Below the pieces are notes generated by a model, which did not search any database, was not told the origin of the DNA, and saw only the letters and a program-made list of their open reading frames with translations. This document shows, piece after piece, positions 23,318 to 23,840 of a stretch of 34,243 nucleotides of DNA. Both the position numbers and the translations under genes were made by a program. Position 1 is the stretch's first letter; each line of letters starts with the position of its first letter. This stretch comes from Ruminiclostridium sp. (GTDB lineage Bacteria > Bacillota > Clostridia > DSM-8532), in assembly GCA_012523055.1 (NCBI GenBank), contig JAAYJG010000286.1, positions 1 to 34,243 on the forward strand. Direction: 5' to 3'.

Positions 23318-23386
23318 ACCGCCAGGGAACTTATTTATGGTGAAAGCAATCATACTAATATACGCTGCATAAACTCATTGCGATGG

Positions 23387-23424
23387 AAAAACAATGGCAT
23401 TATCAGCAAAATAATATTGCATTG
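23387..23424 (-). terminator. Intrinsic terminator-like hairpin on the - strand, 3' of the candidate ncRNA
   Basis: - strand: CAATG-CAAT-ATTAT-TTTGCTG-ATAAT-GC-CATTG-TTTTT. Confidence 0.55.
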
Positions 23425-23751
23425 AAATTTTTATCAAATGCCCTAAGACCCCTGCCTCACAGCGTATTTTTAGCCCTTTGGGCTAAAAAACGCGTAGCGG
23501 GGGATAAATCGATTTCTGCTTCAGTGGTGGGTACAATCTCCCACTGAAGGGGCTGGTCGCAAGCTTCGTTTGCTGCTCGCCCATGCAGCCTGGCATTTGA
23601 TAAAATGCTCGCAGACCGTTCGTAACTATCAGAGATAGTTACGAACCAGTTGCACACAAAACGCGCAAATCGGGAGTGTAGCGCAGGCTTTAGCCGAGGA
23701 ACACTCCCCCTGAAGGCACTTTCAGCGCCCGCGTTTTGGCGAACAATTCGC
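23387..23751 (-). ncRNA. Candidate large structured noncoding RNA between the dipeptidase gene and rsmB
   Basis: 14-bp perfect long-range IR (23429-23442/23592-23605) enclosing several hairpins; 13-bp perfect hairpin 23618-23646; further domain closed by 23657-23665/23730-23738; - strand terminator-like hairpin with T run at 23387-23424. No plausible protein. Confidence 0.68.
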
Positions 23752-23840
23752 GCAAGTGCTCATTGAAATATGAAAATGCGGTGAACTACGAATGAATGCA
23801 GCGAAACATCCGTCTATAAGCAAAGGAACAAGGGAAAAGC

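Follow-up and report, generated by a model that had tools for sequence, protein, structure and literature searches.

A dispersed, modular hairpin repeat upstream of rsmB in a Ruminiclostridium genome

Pneumococcal BOX repeats are modular and MITE-like: they are intergenic, fold and are assembled from interchangeable modules. The element described here resembles them in these respects but, compared by description, differs in sequence, target and module system. IS200/IS605 elements and the group A IStrons insert downstream of a T-rich pentanucleotide such as TTTAT, are specific at one end only, do not duplicate the target and lack terminal inverted repeats (PMC4227781). The palindrome-associated PATE elements are IS200/IS605 derivatives that consist of the ends only (PMC7290912), and the bcr1 repeats of the Bacillus cereus group are short, folded, multicopy and associated with TTTAT (PMC6542083).

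A densely base-paired stretch upstream of rsmB in Ruminiclostridium sp. had been put forward as a candidate structured non-coding RNA on the - strand. Here, the window is the whole stretch of DNA analysed, the 34,243 nt of contig JAAYJG010000286.1. The feature in the window is a mobile repeat rather than an ncRNA gene associated with rsmB.

The folded stretch upstream of rsmB

Comparison of copies identified the folded stretch as one copy of a dispersed repeat that occupies 23435-23767 on the - strand (333 nt), an extent that also rests on empty sites. This copy begins with TTCAATGAGCACTTGCGCG and finishes with GGGCATTTG. The span in the original prediction, 23387-23751, starts too low and ends 16 nt before the conserved 5' end. 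Immediately next to the element's 3' end is TTTAT (23430-23434 on the + strand; ATAAA on the - strand), which was probably the pre-existing target, as ATAAA-like sequence is present in the empty sites of other copies.

All parts of the element are given here as read on the - strand. The first 30 nt of the family, which are nearly invariant (TTCAATGAGCRCTTGCGCGAATTGTKCGCC), lie at 23738-23767, within a core long-hairpin region (23633-23767) that matches covariance model R1 with 43.2 bits. The same region includes a small core hairpin, h1 (GGGCGC...GTGCC, 23715-23730), and, in slot 1, hairpin module B (GGGAGTGT...ACACTCCC, 23672-23708), where other copies have another hairpin or none. Slot 1b holds hairpin module H (GTTCGTAACTATC/GATAGTTACGAAC, 23618-23646), which in other copies occurs as double compensatory variants or is replaced by an unrelated hairpin. 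The 3' domain (23435-23605) is closed by the 14-bp inverted repeat and is missing from short copies. It contains slot-2 hairpin module G (23551-23590), hairpin D (CTTCAGTGG/CCACTGAAG, 23519-23549) and slot-3 hairpin module E (23462-23493), in place of which many copies have a short TATAG loop.

The base pairing originally described is present throughout: the 14-bp, 13-bp and two 9-bp stems (one of them CAAAACGCG) and the two 5-bp stems are perfect and correctly placed, and the GCGTATTTTTAGCCC/GGGCTAAAAAACGC hairpin has the bulge reported for it. Dense pairing was likewise borne out, as both strands of 23380-23790 fold far beyond dinucleotide-shuffled controls (z -6.2 for the - strand, z -7.3 for the +). 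The element alone has a folding z of -6.8 on the - strand, and the window copy with its flanks folds slightly better on the + strand than on the -.

The signals expected of an RNA gene fared less well. A hairpin at 23387-23424 on the - strand had been taken for a 3' terminator, but it is weak: the 23383-23428 hairpin has a z of -1.1, 26 of 200 shuffles fold equally well, and it was not accepted by the terminator scan. Comparison of copies also puts it outside the element, and it is absent from the other copies because it lies outside the repeated unit. No promoter was found above the shuffled background, in agreement with the original prediction. When cmscan was run with Rfam at the gathering threshold and at E<=5, the only match was a sub-threshold one located outside the element, and the models for the raiA motif and HEARO-type RNAs, which had been proposed as known classes, found no match. 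A TnpB guide RNA was rejected, as PF07282 (the TnpB domain) was not found in the same genome.

Copies, modules and insertion sites

Numerous copies scattered through the genome had been named in the original prediction as an observation that would count against it, and such copies are present. A pattern search with the 33-nt 5' end returned 41 copies in this genome at 0-3 mismatches and none with the reversed control, and an own-genome search yielded 118 candidates, of which at least 40 were scored places. Many contigs of this assembly end within the element. With at least 41 copies of a protein-less mobile element in one genome, the feature is therefore no regulatory RNA gene peculiar to the rsmB locus; an ncRNA gene tied to rsmB is ruled out by this multicopy state together with the empty locus in a sister species (see below).

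Copies have sharp ends against unrelated flanks, TTCAATGAGCGCTTGCGCGAATTGTGCGCC on the 5' side and GCATTTGATAAA on the 3' side, so that the fixed ends are TTCAATGAGCGCTTGCGCGAATTGTGCGCC ... GCATTTG. Intact copies are all 95-368 nt. The minimal copy, of about 97 nt, is a single long imperfect hairpin in which the two ends pair with one another, whereas long copies have hairpins near both ends. On top of the minimal hairpin, hairpin modules are present, absent or swapped at fixed sockets, and 47 combinations were seen in 110 copies, both ends being fixed and module assignments being based on approximate patterns. Slot 1 has either of two unrelated hairpins or none; slot 1b has a GTTCGTAACTATC-type, a GTTCATAATTATC-type or the unrelated GTTGGTATTTG hairpin; and the 3' domain with its 14-bp closing repeat itself holds optional modules. 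The module GGGTCGAGGC...GTTCCAGTG is in slot 2 in this genome and in slot 1 in a relative, G002.

At one orthologous site, the copies in the sister species G001 and in G002 (L096 and L112) contain different hairpin modules, which suggests that modules were exchanged in place or that the site received more than one insertion. Different module sets at the same or neighbouring sites were also seen for L090 and L271 (this genome, G000, and G002), again fitting in-place change or re-insertion. A further module, GGGTCGAGGCTTGTGGTGCGTTCCAGTG (L088, L114, L138, L274 and L275), turns up in various sockets and in either orientation, much as a repeat in its own right would. Some copies (L030, L031, L032 and L044) are reduced to the 3' domain, L030 having its own TTCAAATGCC 5' end, and these may be free-standing simple hairpin elements. 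Copies truncated on the 3' side also exist.

Four comparisons of occupied and empty sites (R2/L046, L083, L009 and L085) revealed exact insertion with no target duplication. The first involves R2 (GATCCTTCGCTGCGCTCAGGATGACATCGCTGCGCTCAGATAAAACACATACCTCTGAAGC...), a second high-copy repeat that is unrelated to the hairpin element, occurs in this genome in at least 40 places with about 60 matches (L141-L170, e.g. G000:C134:7455-7574) and is one of the element's targets. Empty R2 reads CTCAG-ATAAAACACATACC in about 30 copies, and in L046 it is interrupted as CTCAG-TTCAATG...GCATTTG-ATAAAACACATACC. Orthologous empty sites for L083 and L009 are found in G001, as is that of the minimal, 98 nt copy L085, where empty TTTTTCA-ATACTCAGACAATTAC corresponds to occupied TTTCTCA-element-ATAATCAGACAATTAC. 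The junction is TTTAT (ATAAA on the - strand) in the R2/L046, L083 and L009 empty sites and ATA(A/C)T in that of L085. From these pairs we conclude that the element joins directly 5' of an ATAAA-like sequence, that is, 3' of TTTAT on the other strand.

At the window locus, the intergenic region between the M19 peptidase gene and rsmB in G001 has no element; the insertion here is therefore lineage-specific, but the G001 sequence differs in other ways too, so this locus gives no exact junction. Orthologous loci without the element were also found for L081, L045, L041, L036, L018, L013 and L015, with junctions too diverged for exact placing.

Copies are intergenic; 35 are antisense to both neighbours and fewer, 19, are sense (p 0.04). 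No longer, autonomous copy with an ORF was found among the copies examined, and the ORFs neighbouring copies include no single recurrent family. Carriage as phage or plasmid cargo was rejected, as the phage, plasmid and IMG/VR collections contained no match to the element. Among the papers searched, none described its 5' sequence.

Distribution and conservation of the fold

The 5' motif was found in Thermoclostridium and Clostridiaceae MAGs, a Clostridium thermobutyricum MAG, Syntrophomonas zehnderi, Syntrophomonas UBA4922, HGW-Firmicutes-15, GWB2_37_7 and the isolate Desulforamulus aeronauticus. Its invariance across these taxa is in part ascertainment, because the scan demanded the 30-nt motif; copies obtained from G067 and G002 with the covariance model also largely keep it. 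Of 399 genomes sampled evenly across the phylum, only three had a match, and such a patchy distribution is as expected of a mobile element. No match to the motif was found in any Bacillus species among the genome contigs scanned.

The element occurs in several unrelated lineages of anaerobic Firmicutes, and its long core hairpin has been retained, with compensatory changes, in Thermoclostridium, Clostridiaceae, Syntrophomonas and Desulforamulus. In 66 distinct rows, 89.2% of the 1965 cells of the core structure are standard pairs, and 30 cells are doubly changed compared with 11.1 in shuffles (0/500 shuffles as high), though these covariation figures lean towards structure because the alignment was fitted to the model. 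On the - strand the core has 335 G-U cells and 70 A-C cells, or 166 and 69 when three constant wobble pairs are left out, a G-U excess that moderately favours folding of the - strand. With RNA parameters the - strand folds better in 56 of 76 copies, and DNA parameters agree weakly. The original view of a structured - strand RNA thus gains some support from the predominance of G-U over A-C cells in the core, and its conserved covarying fold stands; its reading as an RNA gene is countered by the multicopy state, the absence of promoter and terminator and the empty locus in the sister species.

These data bear on the likeliest alternative, that a functional structured - strand RNA has spread as a mobile cassette, the DNA copies being its genes and the fold being kept because the RNA acts, for instance in its own mobility or for the host. 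The core wobble bias, the three near-constant wobble pairs, the strand preference under RNA parameters and the covariation all favour it, but promoter and terminator signals at the window copy do not exceed background, Rfam has no match, the interior is freely reshuffled, the window copy with flanks prefers the + strand and the bias under DNA parameters is weak. We consider this explanation unlikely.

Mode of movement

The best reading of the family is as an undescribed, PATE/MITE-like, dispersed and non-autonomous hairpin repeat. We lean, with some reserve, towards the window feature being a copy of a non-autonomous mobile DNA element that has a single-stranded (hairpin) recognition form and is moved in the way PATE elements are. 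An HUH/Y1-type (IS200/IS605-like) transposase acting in trans would cleave and rejoin the folded single-stranded element DNA, reading both ends and the TTTAT target as for PATE elements. The extra hairpins may be tolerated passengers, gained through template switching or recombination between hairpins. Single-stranded DNA transposition in trans is favoured because the one-sided TTTAT, the lack of duplication and the palindromic ends match the rules of IS200/IS605 and PATE elements.

Like PATE elements, the element is non-coding, has palindromic ends and is inserted 3' of TTTAT with one-sided specificity and no target duplication. It differs in that no parent IS with its ends was found among 30 Y1_Tnp loci, that the ends of its short form pair mutually, that its interior is made of exchangeable hairpins and that it has a - strand wobble bias. 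The lack of a parent IS counts against an IS200/IS605-like view. So do the wobble bias, which favours the - strand while the top strand with TTTAT on its 5' side would be the +, and the minimal form, in which the ends do not make two separate end hairpins, although hairpins lie near both ends of long copies. It differs from classical MITEs in having no target duplication and ends with only short, imperfect similarity that are not terminal inverted repeats.

The enzyme would be missing from the searched genomes or have gone unrecognised in them. None of the 30 Y1_Tnp loci examined, in this and further carrier genomes, has the element's ends, and no Y1_Tnp match was obtained in two copy-rich genomes, G002 (99% complete) and G067. 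The Ruminiclostridium genome has three Y1 transposase genes (L116, L117 and L118), which are RAYT-like, fall in the RAYT length class and have other repeats around them. Around L117 these are TGTCAAGGGGACGGTTCTGTTGACA-type palindromes, and around L116 and L118 they are of other kinds; they probably represent additional REP systems in the genome. REP/REPIN sequences with their RAYT (TnpA-REP) are comparable to the element as high-copy palindromic intergenic repeats in a genome with RAYT-like genes, but those genes are flanked by repeats of the GGGACGGTTCT type and others and not by the element, and a RAYT/REPIN origin was ruled out on these neighbourhoods.

The main arguments against single-stranded DNA transposition are that no matching Y1 gene was found and that the wobble bias favours the - strand, and both allow for an explanation based on RNA. 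It is doubtful, and a little more so than for the RNA cassette above, that the element belongs to a new mobile hairpin class of several anaerobic Firmicutes groups, in which a conserved single-stranded fold, possibly RNA, would direct insertion at TTTAT without the help of either a Y1 transposase or a reverse transcriptase, and which would evolve by plugging entire hairpins in and out of fixed sockets.

A bcr1-type repeat, moved at TTTAT by a host or phage recombinase in the manner of site-specific recombination, is improbable. The element is, as bcr1 is described to be (PMC6542083), short, folded, multicopy and tied to TTTAT, and it is likewise dispersed and mobile-looking. However, its 5' motif is not in any Bacillus species among the genome contigs, TTTAT is on one side only, and, with bcr1 compared by description, its interior is modular and its distribution wide but patchy over Firmicutes. 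Least probable is RNA-mediated, SINE-like spread, in which a transcript ending in GAUAAA would prime on nicked TTTAT and be copied by a reverse transcriptase in trans: ATAAA is common to the RNA-sense 3' end and the target, and L030, L031, L032 and L044 retain the 3' part only, but copies truncated on the 3' side exist as well, there is no poly-A-like tail, and three carrier genomes, G002, G062 (S. zehnderi) and G066 (the C. thermobutyricum MAG), have no RVT_1 match, which rules out a reverse transcriptase as universal partner.

The insertion upstream of rsmB is most likely neutral or has a weak regulatory effect. In these anaerobes the element accounts for many structured intergenic regions and assembly breaks, and it serves as a caution that a mobile repeat can give strong folding plus covariation. 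About 110 natural copies with clean empty sites provide material for studying the movement of hairpin elements that encode no protein and the way they swap parts. Should the mobiliser prove to be something other than a Y1 transposase or a reverse transcriptase, the element would represent a new mobility mechanism.
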